Under the pieces are notes generated by a model. It was given only the letters and a program-made list of their open reading frames with translations, did no database searches and was not told where the DNA came from. A program made the translations under genes and the position numbers. Source: a virus. Taken from it: a stretch of 64,000 nucleotides of DNA. The stretch is from IMG/VR virus record IMGVR_UViG_3300020156_000021, positions 108,910 to 172,909 of that record; one strand, given 5' to 3'. Below, piece by piece: positions 4,809-57,067 of the stretch (the stretch's first letter is position 1; each line of letters starts with the position of its first letter).

Positions 4809-5714
4809 TTACATTTGTAACCCATCAAACCTATTAATCGAATTCTGCATTTCATATCTCATAAGATCAATCTCATTAATATTTGAACCAAAAACGGTAT
4901 TAAAAAACTGAACCAAATCATTATCAAAAACTATCTTAATTAACGATTGCATTTTATATTCCTTAAATATCTTTGCCCATTTAATACTCAATACATTTTT
5001 AGAAGTAAACTTATACCCCTTATGACTCAATTCTTCTTTTAACCATACCCCAAATTCTTTAGCTCTTTCAATACCATCTTGTTTCCAATACTCTTCTATC
5101 CTACCACTCTTTTTTAACATATATGGTTTAATTTCTGGATACGCATTATATATAGCCATATGCCAGGAGTTATTAAACAAAGTACTAATCATTCCACCTA
5201 GTTTATTATCCCTAAATACACTTTTATCAGATTCATTTATTATATCAGAATAACTCCATCCAATGTATTTATACATATAAATTGTACATTCTTTAGCTCC
5301 AATATAACTATTGCCTCCAATATCTTCTTTCCAAAAATTAAGTGGGAATTTATCTAACTCTCCTTCTAACACTTTTTTATAAACTCTTACTTCAAAGGAT
5401 TCATCTTTTTCCAATATATCTTCTAATTCTTCAATGGTAGTATCTTTCTTAGTCTTAAATAAATACTCTTCAGATTCTTCATTAACTGGATAAACAGTTA
5501 TAATAACCTTTTCATCTTCTAAAGTTTCATCAACAACAAAATATGTCTTCTCACTTTTATAAATTGCAACAGTATCAGTTTGTTGCTTATCAAGTTTTGC
5601 AGAACCAAAATCATATCTTATTTCTTCAGCAATCTGATCTCCATCAATATTTCCGTTGTTTACAAATCGTTCATACCATCTTATTTTTGCATGGTTAGTT
5701 ACTTCAATTTTCAT
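4809..5714 (-). CDS. hypothetical protein with DUF4258-like N-terminus and DUF4046-like middle
   Basis: 301 residues. The ATG at 5712-5714 fits the GGAGGG site; an upstream ATG touches that site. The first 40 residues (TNHAKIRWYERF) resemble DUF4258, and YKKVLEGELDKFPLNFW resembles the DUF4046 signature seen in Bacillus and its phages. Both matches are from memory. No catalytic motif is visible. It is one of the longer genes of this block. Confidence 0.6.
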   Translation of the reverse strand: MKIEVTNHAKIRWYERFVNNGNIDGDQIAEEIRYDFGSAKLDKQQTDTVAIYKSEKTYFVVDETLEDEKVIITVYPVNEESEEYLFKTKKDTTIEELEDILEKDESFEVRVYKKVLEGELDKFPLNFWKEDIGGNSYIGAKECTIYMYKYIGWSYSDIINESDKSVFRDNKLGGMISTLFNNSWHMAIYNAYPEIKPYMLKKSGRIEEYWKQDGIERAKEFGVWLKEELSHKGYKFTSKNVLSIKWAKIFKEYKMQSLIKIVFDNDLVQFFNTVFGSNINEIDLMRYEMQNSINRFDGLQM

Positions 5715-5783
5715 GTATAACATCCCTCCATCATATATTATACACAAAAATACATATTTCCCTCAATGTTAAAAATTATATAC

Positions 5784-6482
5784 TCATTCAGTATCATGCT
5801 GCTTTATATATTTAATAATATCATCAAAACATGTTTCTCTTATTGTATATACCCTTTGTTCATGATAATGGTTTGTATTTCCTAAATAATTTTTATGCCA
5901 TAATATTATGTCAGTCCCGTCTAAATTTAATAGCCATTCTGCTATGGGCGTAATAATATATATAGATTTATTTACTATTTTACATCTAAAGCCATATTCA
6001 TTACACATTTTTATTATATTTTCTTCACTATAAGACACTTTATTGTAAATACTTGTTAATAATCTTTCAGATATTCTCTGAAAATTATTATTACTCCAAT
6101 TACCACTAATCTTTTGTTTTGAGAAAACATAAATATAGTCATCATTTATATATTCAATATTTTTAATTCGTAAATTAGTTTCTCCTATACAAAAAATATC
6201 TCCAATTTTAAATTTAGGATTCCACCAACTAGGTAGCTCTTTATTTAATGATGAAACTACTATATCCCTCTGTCTACTAAGAGTAGATTCCAACTCTTGT
6301 TCTGGTACTTTAACAAATCTCTTTTCTTCCCAACTATTATCAATGAATCTTATAAGAGAATAATATATTATATGACTTCCTTCATCATAATCAAGTATAA
6401 TTTCTCTTTTGATTATTTTTACAAGATTATTTCCATATATAAATTCTTGACTAATATTATATTTAGGTAATGGTAATTCCAC
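5784..6482 (-). CDS. hypothetical protein with a C-terminal domain shared with 13605-13868
   Basis: 232 residues. Residues about 145-230 (SEENIIKMCNEYGFRCKIVNKSIYI onward, in short form) align along their length with the 87-residue protein at 13605-13868: same spacing of EYGFRCKI / KYNYKCRI, IYIITP / VYITSL and a closing KYIKQHD / QIHKHD. The N-terminal part is unassigned. Confidence 0.6.
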   Translation of the reverse strand: MELPLPKYNISQEFIYGNNLVKIIKREIILDYDEGSHIIYYSLIRFIDNSWEEKRFVKVPEQELESTLSRQRDIVVSSLNKELPSWWNPKFKIGDIFCIGETNLRIKNIEYINDDYIYVFSKQKISGNWSNNNFQRISERLLTSIYNKVSYSEENIIKMCNEYGFRCKIVNKSIYIITPIAEWLLNLDGTDIILWHKNYLGNTNHYHEQRVYTIRETCFDDIIKYIKQHDTE

Positions 6483-16149: not shown

Positions 16150-17025
16150 TCAATCATTTATTCCTCCAAAAGTTACAGCATTTGCACATTCTTTTAATTG
16201 TTCATCATCAACATGAATATACAAGCGTGTTGTTTTTATATTATTATGTCCAAGAATTTCTTGTAAAGCAGCAAGAGATATTTTTTTTGCTGCTTTAGTA
16301 GCATAAGTATGTCTTAAAATATGTGGATTTCGCTTATTTTTTGGTATTCCAGCTTCCTTACAATAATTTTGAATTATTAAATCAATAGTAGATGTAGATA
16401 TTTGGCCTTGTGCTGTTGTGAACAAATAATTTGATGTATTTTTTCTTACTTTTAAATAATCATTTATTGCATTTACTGCAATGTTATTTATATAAAGATT
16501 TTGCTCTTTTTTCCCTTTTCGAATAATTTTTATATAATTTCCATTAAAATCTGTTAATAACAAATTTCTTGCTTCTGATTTCCTTAAACCAATATTTAGA
16601 TACAAAAGAATAATGGCTCTATTCCTAATACCTATTTCACTCTGATCTTTATAAATTACTCTTACTAATCTATCAGATTCATTTTGAGTCAATACTTCCC
16701 TTTCCTTCTTATCTATTTTTGGCACTTTTATTTTAAGAGTTGGATTTATACTTATAATCTTTTTAACTTCATTACAGTACCAAAAAAATTTTTTTAAGGT
16801 ACATATTCTTCTTGCTCTAGTAGATGCTATATTATCTATACTTTTTAAATGATATATATAATCTCTGATATCATCCTCAGTTATAGCCGTAACATCTTTA
16901 TTAATCCAATCAAAAAACATTTTTAAATCATGATTATAAGATAATATTGTATCTTCACTTTTATTCTCTTCTACGTCTAAATAATTTAAAAATCTCTCTG
17001 CTATTTCCGGCACTTCATACTTCAT
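16150..17025 (-). CDS. tyrosine recombinase / integrase
   Basis: 291 residues of XerC/D type. A SAM-like core-binding domain spans 1-90. The catalytic set is complete: Arg in GLRKSE, Lys in IRKGKKEQ, HILRHTYAT box, LGHNNIKTT and the nucleophile Tyr in RLYIHV. It could integrate the element or resolve dimers. It is also the only intact recombinase in the window and so a candidate for the inversion at 53.1 kb, although no link is shown. Confidence 0.92.
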   Translation of the reverse strand: MKYEVPEIAERFLNYLDVEENKSEDTILSYNHDLKMFFDWINKDVTAITEDDIRDYIYHLKSIDNIASTRARRICTLKKFFWYCNEVKKIISINPTLKIKVPKIDKKEREVLTQNESDRLVRVIYKDQSEIGIRNRAIILLYLNIGLRKSEARNLLLTDFNGNYIKIIRKGKKEQNLYINNIAVNAINDYLKVRKNTSNYLFTTAQGQISTSTIDLIIQNYCKEAGIPKNKRNPHILRHTYATKAAKKISLAALQEILGHNNIKTTRLYIHVDDEQLKECANAVTFGGIND

Positions 17026-22499: not shown

Positions 22500-22883
22500 T
22501 TACTCACTCAAATATCTAATACGTTCTATCTCCAATTTCCCTGTTTCTACAAGAAACTCTACAAACTTTTTATCTGCCCATTCTACATACTCATTGCCAG
22601 GATCAAATACAGTTCCATCATTTAATTTATATAATAGACGACTATACCCTTCTCCCATAATATATCCAAAAGACACATTAAAATATTTAGCTAATGCGTT
22701 GACATGAATTATGGGTAATCTTTTTGCTTCATTCTTGAGATATGTTTGCAATCGTTTTTTAGGTATGCCTGTTCCTTTTAATACGTCATCAATTGTTACA
22801 TTTCTGTCTTTCATAAGGTCTGGCAAAACTTTATATAATGGAACTTCATACTCTTCTTGAGTAATTTGATTATTATCAGACAT
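22500..22883 (-). CDS. XRE-like regulator
   Basis: 127 residues. Residues 15-80 carry a helix-turn-helix (NVTIDDVLKGTGIPKKRLQTYL then VNALAKYFNVSFGYIMGE-type). Tail of about 45 residues is acidic and aromatic. Has its own promoter at 22912-22940. Probably a phage repressor-type protein. Confidence 0.75.
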   Translation of the reverse strand: MSDNNQITQEEYEVPLYKVLPDLMKDRNVTIDDVLKGTGIPKKRLQTYLKNEAKRLPIIHVNALAKYFNVSFGYIMGEGYSRLLYKLNDGTVFDPGNEYVEWADKKFVEFLVETGKLEIERIRYLSE

Positions 22884-22911
22884 AATAACCCTCCTAATAA
22901 CTCATGAAATT

Positions 22912-22940
22912 ATTATATAATAACTTCCAGTAAAAGTCAA
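22912..22940 (-). promoter_or_regulatory. promoter of the XRE-like gene
   Basis: TTGACT (22935-22940) and perfect TATAAT (22912-22917), spacing 17, minus strand. Confidence 0.7.
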
Positions 22941-22984
22941 TTGCAGGTAATCTCCTATTTCTATATTAATATAAAATTCGCCTT

Positions 22985-23176
22985 TTATAAAGATTCTAAA
23001 ATCCACATATTATCTGATTTATTACCACAAACACAACAAGTATAATAATTCCCTTTACCTAATACAGAAGAAAATCCACCTAGTTTAAAATTTTTAGGTA
23101 TTTTATTTTGCTCTTCACATTTATCACACATTGTAATAAAATTTTTAGTATAGTCTTTTTTCTTCAATTTCATCAT
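22985..23176 (-). CDS. zinc-ribbon protein
   Basis: 63 residues with CDKC and CCVCG, a standard zinc ribbon spacing. Unknown. Confidence 0.62.
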   Translation of the reverse strand: MMKLKKKDYTKNFITMCDKCEEQNKIPKNFKLGGFSSVLGKGNYYTCCVCGNKSDNMWILESL

Positions 23177-23219
23177 CTCCTATTTTAATACAAATTCCGT
23201 CTTTTATCATATTCTGTTG

Positions 23220-23375
23220 TTAATCAATTAAACTATTAAGAGAATTACAATATGCTAACGCCTCTGCTTTAGTCTTAAAAATCGCAGAACAAAATTTTTC
23301 ATAAAACAATACGTCGGCATTAACTCCTTCTTTGACTACAAACCTTACGCCTGTATATGCAACCCCGTACAACAT
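23220..23375 (-). CDS. 51-residue protein
   Basis: ATG at 23375 behind GGAAGG. Beta strands then an ALAYCNSL helix. Unknown. Confidence 0.5.
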   Translation of the reverse strand: MLYGVAYTGVRFVVKEGVNADVLFYEKFCSAIFKTKAEALAYCNSLNSLID

Positions 23376-23416
23376 TTTAAATCCTTCCTTTCATTTAATC
23401 CAAATTCACATTCTAT

Positions 23417-23662
23417 TCAGATCCCTACAACTTTTCTATTGTAATATACTAAATCTTCTTCTCTTCCTGTGTCTTCAACTTCATGCGGTAAACCTAACGC
23501 CTCAATTTCTGATATTTCTCCGCAATGTTCAGAAAATAATTTACTACCTTTTTGTATTTCCTTAATAAACTTTTTAGGAACAGAATAAAACCCACTCATA
23601 CCAACCTTTTTGTTATAGCCACAAACACAATATTCCTTCCTTGTGACAATGCCGTTTAACAT
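23417..23662 (-). CDS. hypothetical protein
   Basis: 81 residues behind GGAGG. Contains YCVCGYNKK and a SEHCG pair. Unknown. Confidence 0.58.
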   Translation of the reverse strand: MLNGIVTRKEYCVCGYNKKVGMSGFYSVPKKFIKEIQKGSKLFSEHCGEISEIEALGLPHEVEDTGREEDLVYYNRKVVGI

Positions 23663-23674
23663 TTCAATTCCCTC

Positions 23675-23881
23675 CTAATTATTTTTAGTTTCTGTTATCT
23701 CTCTAAACTGCCATCTTCCACCTTTGACTACTACAATGTATCTATCCAGGTACTTTTTTTTAAGTGTGTTATACACCTTGTTGTCCTCTGTTATTATATA
23801 TCCTGTTGAGTAAAAGTATTTGTTAATACCGTCCTCTAACTTCTCTTTTGATATGTCAGAGCCTACACATTTTGTTTTCAT
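23675..23881 (-). CDS. hypothetical protein
   Basis: 68 residues, basic. Unknown. Confidence 0.55.
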   Translation of the reverse strand: MKTKCVGSDISKEKLEDGINKYFYSTGYIITEDNKVYNTLKKKYLDRYIVVVKGGRWQFREITETKNN

Positions 23882-52977: not shown

Positions 52978-53029
52978 ATGTCAAATTTGGTTAAAAGTCA
53001 GATAATAATATTTTATTATGAGGTAGTTA

Positions 53030-53143
53030 ATGTTACCAGTATTTAAAGAATACATACAATTTCTAAAAGATAAAACTAATAATGATGATAAAACAGAGGT
53101 TTCATTCCAGGATTCTATATCATATGGTTCTTCTGATTTATAA
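53030..53143 (+). CDS. 5' stub of the PAPS-reductase-like gene (OFF state)
   Basis: ATG at 53030 behind GAGG (53019-53022). In the present orientation the frame runs through the left inverted repeat and ends at TAA 53141-53143 after 37 codons. With the segment 53092-53272 turned round, this same start leads without interruption into the gene ending at 54328. Confidence 0.7.
   Translation: MLPVFKEYIQFLKDKTNNDDKTEVSFQDSISYGSSDL
53092..53102. repeat. left 11-bp inverted repeat of the switch
   Basis: AACAGAGGTTT. Exact reverse complement of 53262-53272. It lies inside the reading frame and encodes T-E-V in the left flank. Confidence 0.85.
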
Positions 53144-53251
53144 GATTTTAAGGTTATTGATAAATCATTGCTTATAATTATTTTAATAACTTTATGCAGA
53201 TTTCCTTGTTTATCAAATGCCTTTATTATCTGATTATTTAACCAATAGTAA

Positions 53252-54328
53252 CCTTCACACAAAACCTCTGTTCGATTATCTTGCAGAATTAATCAATTAG
53301 AACAAGACAGTATTAAACTATTACAAGAATATGGCATTAATACCGATAGGACTATAGTTGATACTAATTCAACAGGTAAAGACAGTATGGTTAAAACTTA
53401 CTTGGCACAAAAAACAGGGTTGAATTTTACTACATATTTTAACGTCACCACAATGGATGTTGCTGACAGTAATATAATGGCTAAGGAATCACAATATAAG
53501 TTTATACATCCTGACAAAAAACTATGTGGGTTTTATAATTGGTCTAAGAAAGAAAATTTAATACCATCAAGATTAAATAGAGCTTGTTGTTTGTATTTCA
53601 AAGAAAATCCAACTATCTATAATTTTAATGATAAGGAAAAACTTCTTTTCCTGTTTGGAATGAGAAATGATGAAAGTAACAATAGATCAACTTATGGAGA
53701 TATATGGGTTAATGATAAGTGGGGTAAGAGTAGAGATTGGATAGGACTTTTACCCATAAGGGAATGGACTGATTTGGATATATGGTTATACATATTAAGA
53801 GAAGGAATAAAGATTAATCCTAAATATAAAAAGGGATATGATAGAGTAGGCTGCGGAATAGTATGTCCTAATTATTCAAAGTCCACCTGGGTTTTAGATA
53901 AATATTGGTATCCGAAATTGTATGATAGATGGCAAAAAAGACTTGAACAAGATTTTATAAATAATTATAAATGGATAATTATGAATTGTACTCTCAAAGA
54001 ATATATTCAAGAAGCATGGACAGGAGGGGTATATAGGGATGAACCAACATCAGAAGTAATTCAAGAATTTGCTGATTATAAAGGTATTACATACGATATA
54101 GCTGAAAAATATTTCATGAGAACTTGTATTAATGGATGTAAAAATAAAAGAGGAAATATAGTATCTATAAAAGACAAAGACACATTGGCAATGAACATGA
54201 AGATGTTTGGTAGAAATATTGATAAGTTTATGTGTAAGAAATGTTTATTGAAGTATTTCGGATGGACAAAAGAGGATTGGAATAACAAAGTAAAAGAATT
54301 TAAAGAAAGTGGATGCAAATTATTTTAA
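53252..54328 (+). CDS. PAPS-reductase / ATP-pyrophosphatase family protein, 5' end switched off
   Basis: The open frame from 53252 has no start codon before an internal ATG at 53387, which would lose the nucleotide loop. The full ON protein would be 432 residues from ATG 53030: N-terminal beta domain 1-85, linker helix NQLEQDSIKLLQEYG, PP-loop STGKDS (ON residues 114-119), LPIREWTDLDIWLYI substrate region, CGIVCPN, and a four-Cys knuckle (CINGC, CKKC) near the end. Family members reduce or transfer activated sulfur or adenylate nucleobases; DndC is one relative. Substrate unknown. Confidence 0.75.
   Translation, partial: PSHKTSVRLSCRINQLEQDSIKLLQEYGINTDRTIVDTNSTGKDSMVKTYLAQKTGLNFTTYFNVTTMDVADSNIMAKESQYKFIHPDKKLCGFYNWSKKENLIPSRLNRACCLYFKENPTIYNFNDKEKLLFLFGMRNDESNNRSTYGDIWVNDKWGKSRDWIGLLPIREWTDLDIWLYILREGIKINPKYKKGYDRVGCGIVCPNYSKSTWVLDKYWYPKLYDRWQKRLEQDFINNYKWIIMNCTLKEYIQEAWTGGVYRDEPTSEVIQEFADYKGITYDIAEKYFMRTCINGCKNKRGNIVSIKDKDTLAMNMKMFGRNIDKFMCKKCLLKYFGWTKEDWNNKVKEFKESGCKLF
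53262..53272. repeat. right 11-bp inverted repeat of the switch
   Basis: AAACCTCTGTT, reverse complement of 53092-53102, inside the reading frame. Confidence 0.85.
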
Positions 54329-54361: not shown

Positions 54362-57067
54362 TTGAAACCTGAAAACACATACATAATGAATTTAGAAGCT
54401 TGTTATATATATAAAGATATTATAGAAAATAAAAAAATAGAAAGTAAAAATAAAGATATAGTAAAATTATATTCAGCAACTATTCCTTATAGCCTCGAAA
54501 CTATAAGGATGGATGCTATATTTCCTGATACTTTTTATATGTTAAATGGTAAACAATATAGCAATAAAATTATTAATATAACTTTTGATAAACATTTAAC
54601 TAAATGGGATAAGGATTATGAATGGGAAGATGAAAATGGAGATATAATCAAAGGAAAAAGAATTACCGTTGCCAATAAAAAAAAGATACGAAAATATCTA
54701 TATTTAAATGGCTTTGTCATGGATGGGATTAAATATATTTTTTACAAGAGAGGATCAGGCAAAGCAAAAAACGGTTATGCATTATATATACAAGAATCCA
54801 TGAAACAAGAGTTAATAAAAAGAAGCAGATTAGGAATAGAATTTGTTAAGAATGAAGAACTGGATTTAACTTCTTTATTGGCATATGAATCTCTAGTTAC
54901 TTCTGGTATAGAGTTTACTATTAATTTAGACCCTAAAACAGAAATTCTTTTAATTGATGATATTTATGGATTGGAATTTGATAGTATAGCAAGTGTAACA
55001 AGAGAGATAGATGGTGAAATTGTAACTCAAAACGAAACAATAAATATAAAGAATTGCCTTACTGATGGACAGGGGTTATTAGATGAATCTGTTTTTGAGA
55101 CATATCAAAAAAGCAATAAGGGGTTTATGTTACTCAGAAATGATATGTTTAAATGTTGTGCGTTTAACACTAAATTACAACAATGGTTTCAAGCTAATAA
55201 AATAATAAAATTAAAGGATATGTTTGATAATGATTATGATGCAAATAAAATAAAATTAGTGACTACACCTAACTCATTAAAATTTCTTAAATTTGCTTAT
55301 AAGATGCCAAACCAAACACTAAAAGAATGTTATTCTTATTGGTTAGACAAAATTGATAATATATTTGGTGTTGTTAAATGTGACAAAGAAGGTAATTATG
55401 GTAATTATAACAGAACTACATATCAACTCTTAAATAGTATACCTAATTTAACGATTAATGATTTAATGGAGATTACAAAACTTGAAAGAGAATATGTAAT
55501 GCTTTTAAAAAATGATGATGCTGTATTTAAAAATTATCTTGGATGTGATGCAAAAAATTCTTTAAAAATAGAAAAAATGATTGAAGAAGACGAAGATGAT
55601 TTAAATTTATATGAAAACACTGAATTATTGAGTGCTTTATTATTAGTTAATTCAGATATTCAATATACAAAAAAATTTAAAAAGATGAAGAGTGATTTAA
55701 TAACTAATTACATAGGGCATTTAAGAGAAGGTAAGATTAGAATGAAAGATTCTAAATATGTTACTTTATTTTCGAATCCTTATGAAATGCTATTAGCTTC
55801 TATAGGGCAATATAACAATGAATCTATAATGAAGGGTAGAGAAATATATTGTAAATATTATAAAACTGGTCAAGAGTTTTGTGCCTCACGTAATCCTCAT
55901 ATAAATGCCGGAAATGTAATGCATACTAAAAATAAAGGGCATTTAGAATATAATATGTGGTTCAATTTCACTAATAATATATGTGCCATTAACTTTTTTG
56001 ATAATGATGCACCAGATAGGCTACAGGGGTGTGATACAGATAGTGACACGATTTTACTTAATCCTTCAGAAATATTATCTGCAAAAGCAAAGTATTGTGA
56101 AGAAAATTTTCCTACTCCGATTAACAAAGTTAAAGGAACAGTTAATCCAAGAAAATACAATATGAAAGAGTTACAGAAACTAGATTTTACTTTAAGTGAT
56201 AATTACATAGGGAGAATAGTTAATTTATCACAGATAATCAATTCATATTTGAATGATGCTATTAGTAAAGATAAACCACAAGAAGAAATTAATGAATTAT
56301 ATCAAGCAAGTAGTAAATTATCTAGTTTAAGTCAAATAGAAATTGATAAAAGTAAAAAGATTTTTGATAATGTTAATATGCATAAAGAATTAAGTAAAAT
56401 CAGAGAAATTAGTTATTTAAGATATGTGCAAGAAAAAGATAGATATGATCAAATGGCTGATAAAATGATTGTTCCTAGTTTCTTTAAGATGATTTCAGAT
56501 GCTAATGAATATAGAATATTTGAAAAGTTTAATACGCCTTTGGATATATTACAAGATGTTTTAGTATTTGATGTTTCAAACTATCCTAAAGATGAAAGAA
56601 ATATAGAATTTAAAGATTTGTTAGTACAATCTAAAGACTTAGAAGGTAGATATAGACAGCAAAGTGCAGAAGCAATTTTTAAAATTATAGAAAAGTGCGG
56701 AAAAAAAATAAATGGATTAAAGGTAAAAACCTCCATTTTAAACGATAAGGCTAAAAAAACTGTTGAAAGGAAATCAAAACATACCGCAATTGAAGAATTA
56801 AAAAAATTAAATCCAAGTGATTCAACTATATTATCAGTATTAAAACAATGTTTTGGTACTAAAGATGAAGATAAATTAGGATTTAAAAAGTATAGTATGT
56901 TAACTTTAAATTTATTATTTATTGCAAAAAAGATACAAGTATTAAGATGTTTTAAAAATAATAATTCAAACGATGATATTTTAATAAAAATAAAAGAAGG
57001 ATATGATTTCGATATATTTGGGAACAAGTATCAAAAAGTAAAAATGACTTCAGATTTTACGGTTTAG
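54362..57067 (+). CDS. single-chain RNA polymerase of the YonO / QDE-1 (RdRp-like) type
   Basis: 901 residues from a TTG start behind GGAGG. Landmarks of the two-barrel RdRp-like polymerases: LTDGQGLLDESVF (DG-x-G at 235-238), MLLRNDMFKCC (259-264), ASRNPHINAG (R510), and the metal triad GCDTDSDTILL with D558, D560 and D562. Cellular and eukaryotic relatives read D-x-D-G-D; here Ser replaces Gly. SPbeta YonO, a DNA-dependent polymerase, is recalled as about 905 residues, the same size. It probably transcribes late genes of this element. Long, AT-rich, no sign of decay. Confidence 0.75.
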   Translation: MKPENTYIMNLEACYIYKDIIENKKIESKNKDIVKLYSATIPYSLETIRMDAIFPDTFYMLNGKQYSNKIINITFDKHLTKWDKDYEWEDENGDIIKGKRITVANKKKIRKYLYLNGFVMDGIKYIFYKRGSGKAKNGYALYIQESMKQELIKRSRLGIEFVKNEELDLTSLLAYESLVTSGIEFTINLDPKTEILLIDDIYGLEFDSIASVTREIDGEIVTQNETINIKNCLTDGQGLLDESVFETYQKSNKGFMLLRNDMFKCCAFNTKLQQWFQANKIIKLKDMFDNDYDANKIKLVTTPNSLKFLKFAYKMPNQTLKECYSYWLDKIDNIFGVVKCDKEGNYGNYNRTTYQLLNSIPNLTINDLMEITKLEREYVMLLKNDDAVFKNYLGCDAKNSLKIEKMIEEDEDDLNLYENTELLSALLLVNSDIQYTKKFKKMKSDLITNYIGHLREGKIRMKDSKYVTLFSNPYEMLLASIGQYNNESIMKGREIYCKYYKTGQEFCASRNPHINAGNVMHTKNKGHLEYNMWFNFTNNICAINFFDNDAPDRLQGCDTDSDTILLNPSEILSAKAKYCEENFPTPINKVKGTVNPRKYNMKELQKLDFTLSDNYIGRIVNLSQIINSYLNDAISKDKPQEEINELYQASSKLSSLSQIEIDKSKKIFDNVNMHKELSKIREISYLRYVQEKDRYDQMADKMIVPSFFKMISDANEYRIFEKFNTPLDILQDVLVFDVSNYPKDERNIEFKDLLVQSKDLEGRYRQQSAEAIFKIIEKCGKKINGLKVKTSILNDKAKKTVERKSKHTAIEELKKLNPSDSTILSVLKQCFGTKDEDKLGFKKYSMLTLNLLFIAKKIQVLRCFKNNNSNDDILIKIKEGYDFDIFGNKYQKVKMTSDFTV

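Follow-up and report, generated by a model that had tools for sequence, protein, structure and literature searches.

Phase variation has been studied mostly in bacteria, as a means of phage evasion. On the phage side, the Gin and Cin systems of phages Mu and P1 are serine recombinases that act on 26-bp sites and swap the ends of tail fibres. The locus described here shares with them a phage-borne inversion that alters coding sequence but, unlike them, would switch a short stretch at the N-terminus of what is presumably an enzyme. Intragenic invertons have reportedly been described for bacterial genomes from long reads. As in our locus, short inverted repeats lie within coding sequence, and the protein is cut short or recoded when the segment inverts (Chanin et al. 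2024 Nature, as cited in PMC11868660), although here the gene belongs to a phage and other members of its family use start-spanning segments or poly-G tracts. The RecV switches of C. difficile have repeats without a recognisable common sequence (PMC5386303), and in Ureaplasma an inversion at MBA/UU172 exchanges the N-terminal coding end (PMC3047005). Both resemble our case in the short segment, the short inverted repeats and the little sequence common among switches. In contrast to the C. difficile flagellar switch, a 154-bp non-coding element with 21-bp repeats (PMC5386303), the repeats in our gene family are 10 to 16 bp long and lie within or across the coding start. Finally, poly-G phase variation is known from Campylobacter phages (Sorensen et al. 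2021 Cell Reports, cited in PMC11868660). There, hypermutable coding poly-G reportedly switches genes, as in a sister clade of our gene, but the genes switched encode receptor-binding proteins, whereas here they are DNA methyltransferase and PAPS reductase-like genes of elements from gut Clostridia.

In our literature search, largely of freely accessible papers, neither inversion nor poly-G was found described for this PAPS reductase-like phage gene. Intragenic invertons and phage poly-G are each known; their occurrence at one phage gene appears to be new, and we set this phage-borne intragenic inverton apart because its relatives switch the same gene by start-spanning inversion and by poly-G. 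We consider it probable that this phage gene is phase-variable and was assembled in its OFF state, inverted by a tyrosine recombinase and likely involved in DNA-sulfur modification, which would serve population hedging.

An inverted N-terminal segment

The window, i.e., the whole 64,000-nucleotide stretch analysed here, comprises bases 108,910-172,909 of a 172,909-bp IMG/VR virus record (G000). The first-pass annotation had proposed that an 11-mer, AACAGAGGTTT at 53092-53102, and its reverse complement at 53262-53272 bound 181 bp whose inversion switches a PAPS-reductase-family gene, and these coordinates were confirmed (Table 1). So were the frame from ATG 53030, which stops after 37 codons as deposited, the GAGG site ahead of it, and the frame of 432 codons, from ATG 53030 to 54328, that results from inverting 53092-53272 on paper. 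The downstream frame had been called startless. This holds for the part ahead of the PP-loop but not for the rest, as there is one in-frame ATG, 53387, at the end of STGKDSM. Since this first in-frame start is already the end of the PP-loop, the OFF state would yield no PP-loop protein.

Table 1. Features of the putative switch locus (window coordinates) and the corresponding sites in relatives (locus given instead of coordinates).
Feature	Location	Strand	Sequence or evidence
PAPS-reductase-superfamily gene, OFF as deposited	53030..54328	+	432 codons after paper flip
Likely ribosome-binding site, GAGG	53020..53023	+	sequence
Fixed 5' piece, ATG and codons 1 to about 20	53030..53091	+	LPVFKEYIQFL common to paralogue L002 and relative L056
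Putative left inversion site	53089..53104	+	TAAAA-CAGAGG-TTTCA; exact repeat arm 53092-53102
Inverted segment, 181 bp with arms	53092..53272	-	minus strand encodes about 53 residues, N-terminal beta-sheet module
Putative right inversion site (minus-strand reading), partner of the left	53260..53275	-	TCGAA-CAGAGG-TTTTG; exact repeat arm 53262-53272
Fixed body, PP-loop/PAPS_reduct domain and C-terminal region with cysteines	53273..54328	+	open frame
Tyrosine recombinase, one of three, possible trans-acting enzyme	16150..17025	-	Phage_integrase E 9.5e-30
Site frame	L124		TGAAA-GTAACG-TTTCC
Site frame	L128		TGAAA-CGAAAC-TTTCA
Site frame	L135		GGAAA-CCAATC-TTTCA
Site frame	L108		TGAAA-CCGAAA-TTTTA
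Site frame	L129		TTAAA-GTTTGA-TTTTA
Breakpoint repeat	L121, L136		AATCCAATCTTTCA
Breakpoint repeat	L122		ATTTAATTCTATTC
Breakpoint repeat	L124		GTAACGTTTC
Breakpoint repeat	L128		AAACGAAACTTTCAT
Breakpoint repeat	L061, L129		AAAGTTTGATTTTATT

When homologues were searched against the window, three queries (L002, L035 and L046) matched the minus strand inside the segment, with E values of 5e-12, 6e-21 and 2e-21, respectively, and the plus strand outside it. The first-pass annotation had judged the restored N-terminus typical of the family, and had held that homologues lacking the 53-residue piece would point to a one-time inversion or an assembly artefact; every full-length homologue has the piece. 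The restored protein keeps 75 of the 75 columns that are invariant among 20 homologues which, together with the lone downstream start at ATG 53387, indicates that the gene is intact apart from the flip. Amino acid identity to L035 is 61% in the segment and 67% in the body, i.e., the segment is about as close as the rest, and therefore the window copy was well conserved until recently. At the level of the assembled sequence, the gene is inverted relative to all homologues, has an exact repeat at both breakpoints and is otherwise intact. The segment lies within the coding sequence, with exact inverted repeats at both ends, as an intragenic inverton would. The same record carries an intact paralogue (G000 78125-79405), 75% identical to the window gene; a shorter gene of the PAPS reductase-like kind (G000 74535-75437) is located close to this paralogue.

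A repeat of this length means little by itself. Exact inverted repeats of at least 11 bp with loops of 50 to 1000 bp number 171 in the record, against 184 expected under a dinucleotide model, and we rejected the significance of the 11-bp repeat taken alone. Short inverted repeats flank every published microinversion (PMC8755829); together with the chance-level count, this means that the repeat on its own is no proof of a switch. The null hypothesis to beat is a one-off microinversion, by a template switch during replication or the repair of a break at an 11-bp repeat present by chance, that would have left a recent null allele instead of a switch, its loss tolerated through the intact paralogue or even favoured as useful. 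Several features of the locus agree with such an event. The repeat is absent from the paralogue and the nearest relatives (L002, L035, L091 and L116), its left arm falling within a 4-5-codon insertion missing from the latter. The breakpoints, at +62 and +232, differ from the positions used by relatives. A methyltransferase gene located beside the same downstream gene in another element (L076) has a premature TAA, and OFF is the only orientation known for the window phage, from one assembled record. No match to the locus was found in a nucleotide search of phage and plasmid collections, and an exact-pattern scan of IMG/VR for the left junction gave 20 chance matches, none of them related to the window. 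The search for further copies of the 11-mer that the annotation had recommended gave, in the 172,909-bp record, no exact copy and a single near-match with one mismatch.

Two features go beyond chance: the segment that the repeat delimits so exactly is one whose inversion makes a conserved gene whole again, and the repeat agrees in its sequence frame with the inversion sites of relatives. Because a lone 11-bp inverted repeat is at chance level here, the case for a switch rests on these relatives.

Relatives with an inverted N-terminus or a poly-G tract

Scans of IMG/VR and GTDB genomes provided more than 30 homologues. The assumption that all of them were simply intact was dropped once poly-G tracts and opposite-strand N-termini appeared. 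In L121, L122/L123, L124, L128, L136 and L061/L129, the first 50 to 66 residues are encoded on the opposite strand, just 5' of the body. They make up five lineages besides the window, six counting it, and every inverted relative has exact inverted repeats of 10 to 16 bp at the breakpoints (Table 1). Flipping the segments on paper gives frames of 433 (L121, L122 and L124), 441 (L128) and 425 (L061/L129) amino acids; L136 becomes a 283-amino-acid protein, a shortened form that it has in common with L135, a relative in the ON orientation. Within a lineage the arms match over 10 to 16 bp; across lineages they do not, the longest match averaging 6.8 bp. In the L108-L136 group, all five lineages have their right arm at +149 to +168 and their left arm at -103 to -130, the ON members L135 and L108 included (in the latter, an 11-bp repeat at -103/+149, the position used by its relatives). 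Of the control stretches taken from these genes, 1.2% contain repeats of at least 11 bp and none contain repeats of at least 14 bp. The segment spans the start codon throughout this group (about -130 to +180), while that of the window is wholly intragenic (+62 to +243). The first-pass annotation had considered repeats inside the coding sequence unusual, which is only half right: a 2024 report already described invertons within genes, and the segments of most relatives span the start codon instead.

One comparison is that between L135 (ON) and L136 (OFF). Their 2,344-bp body is 95.5% identical on the same strand, whereas a 311-bp segment, 95.2% identical, is on the opposite strand and ends at the repeats. 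The phages that carry them are mostly different outside the locus. What is seen is thus a single locus that two distinct phages carry in opposite orientations, and not a pair of clones. These comparisons support the earlier proposal of a phase-variable gene in the OFF state, and weigh against a one-off event: five further lineages have this module inverted, the arms have stayed matched and both orientations are represented. Neither is there any decay at the 75 invariant positions.

A second line of support comes from the sister clade, found in gut Clostridia and their phages (L005-L014, L036-L048, L065, L067 and L069), which switches the same gene by poly-G slippage. Here, a tract of 6 to 11 G at codons 39 to 42 sets the frame, open in L005 (11 G) and closed in L008, L009 and L014 (7 G); L005 and L008 are 99% identical despite their different tract lengths. 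No G or C tract of at least 6 bases was found in the window gene. Neighbours of the PAPS reductase-like gene, namely DNA adenine methylases (Dam and N6_N4_Mtase) and a C5 cytosine methylase, have G tracts as well, and that of the N6_N4 gene varies among near-identical contigs (8 G in L008 against 10 G in L009 and L014; 9 G in L006 against 7 G in L007). In a 133-kb contig (G010), all tracts of at least 8 bases fall in the cassette formed by the methyltransferase and PAPS reductase-like genes. Such differences in tract length fit phase-variable phage DNA modification, as would be expected. Taken together, the sequences of the relatives document both orientations of a homologous module, its recurrence in six lineages, and poly-G as an alternative means of switching.

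Other observations were made on these loci. A cassette with Dam-type, D12-like, N6_N4 and C5 methyltransferase genes plus the PAPS reductase-like gene, each with a poly-G of 7 to 11, is present in L047 (7833-12583 in IMGVR_UViG_3300006139_000004) and in L069, a contig of Flintibacter muris DSM 110149. Eight relatives (L121, L122, L124, L128, L108, L110, L135 and L136) have a conserved palindrome, GTAATGTACATTAC or GTTATGTACATAAC, 20 to 60 bp 5' of the start, and a GTTTGCAAAC-like dyad further upstream. In those that are inverted, both elements fall within the segment that turns, and they are possibly an operator or a recombination accessory site. L135 (about 4810-5965) and L136 have an insert of ca. 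1.15 kb in the gene body relative to L121, and the L135 insert had no Rfam match to a self-splicing intron. Arrays of repeats with a period of ca. 15 bp are located 3' of the gene in L061 (11437-11923) and L129 (5431-5697), with different lengths, judging from overlapping BLAST matches. The apparent inversion in L066, a 73%-identical homologue, was set aside, since it is a fold-back palindrome (25-168) at the end of a MAG contig and probably an assembly artefact.

Inversion sites and candidate recombinases

Although the arms are otherwise lineage-specific, the sites have a common frame, (T)GAAA-N6-TTTC(A) (Table 1). In tyrosine recombinases, the overlap has to be identical between partner sites but can otherwise be any sequence. 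The frame would look like tyrosine-recombinase half-sites around a free 6-bp overlap; the half-sites are partly conserved and the overlap is identical within each pair. A scoring pattern, TGAAA-N6-TTTCA, was drawn by eye from the relatives with the window left out. The window repeat scores 15 out of 20, the best of the 604 repeats (at least 10 bp, loops of 50 to 1000 bp) in its genome, and L129 and L108 score 16 and 15, respectively. When loops of up to 3000 bp are allowed, one other repeat outscores it and several tie. The fit to the frame of the relatives is a further point against a single accidental microinversion which, all considered, we regard as unlikely.

The higher-scoring repeat is also within the window, a 12-bp inverted repeat (11896-11907/13484-13495) spanning 1,600 bp, with a score of 17 (ATAAA-ATATGT-TTTTA/TGAAA-ATATGT-TTTCA), the best of 1,830 repeats with loops of up to 3 kb. 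One arm is in a gene of 450 amino acids, with a DGYHR motif and beside an MrpR-like gene, and the other is 5' of its start. This gene is intact as deposited, and the repeat is possibly a second switch, or due to chance.

The segment is probably flipped by a tyrosine recombinase, phage- or host-encoded, to judge from the site frame. The record encodes three tyrosine recombinases of the Phage_integrase type, one MrpR-like protein and one large serine recombinase. No recombinase adjoins the window gene, the nearest Phage_integrase match in the record being ca. 37 kb away, at 125110, and those of the relatives are likewise well outside the switched locus. A XerC-like enzyme (G000 22644-23708) has a counterpart with 52% identity in the L136 phage, and most phages with inverted loci encode distant relatives of it. 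The idea that XerC-like recombinases track the invertible state was rejected, as two phages of the poly-G type (G004 and G010) and phages lacking the repeat encode them too. We treat this enzyme as a candidate and nothing more; a flipping enzyme encoded by the host is possible too.

Likely role of the gene

The restored protein matches PAPS_reduct (PF01507) with 76.3 bits, against a curated cut-off of 22.5. An AlphaFold2 model of the intact paralogue (pLDDT of 91.5) has a PAPS reductase/CysD-type fold matching CysH and CysD structures, and in it the flipped segment corresponds to the N-terminal beta strands. The ECGxH motif of CysH is absent from the restored protein and the paralogue falls far below the NCBIfam cut-offs for CysH, i.e., it does not qualify as an assimilatory PAPS reductase. 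The best match in a library of defence proteins was BrxP (E value of 1.1e-25), over part of the length (residues 30-329 of 432 on positions 62-361 of the 779 in the profile). BrxP is used for DNA phosphorothioate modification in BREX type 4 (PMC12839542). Along with SspD and DndC, it is one of the PAPS reductase-like proteins of phosphorothioation systems, and its match includes part of the N-terminal module of the window protein which, unlike BrxP, has no DUF4007 fusion and stands alone in a phage. Among the Pfam-scanned neighbours (PhoH, FtsK-like, an actin-like protein and a 901-amino-acid protein without a Pfam match), no BREX or Dnd partner genes were found. DNA modification is the likeliest role because of the BrxP match and the methyltransferase cassette in the sister clade, and the restored protein is most likely a BrxP-like DNA-modifying sulfur enzyme of the phosphorothioation type, on homology grounds.

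The switch that we propose would work as follows. A recombinase, most likely a phage- or host-encoded one of the tyrosine type, would exchange strands between two short inverted sites. In each of them, two weak half-sites, approximately TGAAA and TTTCA, would flank a 6-bp overlap, CAGAGG in the window, that would be identical in both sites but free in sequence. In the ON orientation, the 53-codon beta-sheet module would connect codons 1-20 with the body in one 432-codon frame, while in the OFF orientation stop codons would follow codon 37 and no start would precede the PP-loop. Switching would let the phage population hedge between marked and unmarked DNA against hosts with differing restriction systems. 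Reversibility in the window phage, the class of the enzyme, the role in DNA modification and the benefit of bet-hedging are what we infer.

Instead of a random hedge, host conditions might set the switch, or the OFF state might be functional through a short regulatory N-terminal peptide. Whichever of the two mechanisms they use, the assembled relatives are in fact more often OFF than ON, but the 37-residue OFF peptide of the window has no homology to the OFF products of these relatives, whose lengths and frames differ, and we find this variant rather improbable. That the inverted piece is chimaeric and the real phage gene intact is hardly credible: although the record is a virus contig in IMG/VR and L066 shows how a palindrome can arise at a contig end, an 11-bp repeat is below any usual assembly word, so both junctions should be present in the reads, amplification chimaeras would seldom become the consensus at two matched breakpoints, and the same arrangement is found in several separate records.

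Under random switching of a DNA-modification gene, it is a phage gene, probably DNA-modifying, that is itself switched, and different lineages would have come to one ON/OFF result along separate routes, inversion in some and poly-G slippage in others. Convergence of this kind points to selection on phage DNA marks that is strong and fluctuating, and whether phages hedge their modification state becomes testable. The matched but lineage-specific repeats suggest a route to short, sequence-free switch sites that consensus searches miss. More tentatively, and as a conjecture on which we would not insist, this may be a contingency locus for phage DNA-sulfur modification that acquired ON/OFF control repeatedly and in two unrelated ways, through inversion by overlap-tolerant tyrosine recombinases (intragenic or start-spanning) and through poly-G slippage in a cassette of phase-variable methyltransferases, so that populations with mixed marks would escape host restriction or modification-sensing defences.

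The 901-amino-acid gene (54362-57067, phrog_8308), directly 3' of the window gene, is 78% identical at the DNA level in L076, where a methyltransferase gene with an in-frame TAA (2034-2792) replaces the PAPS reductase-like gene 5' of it.
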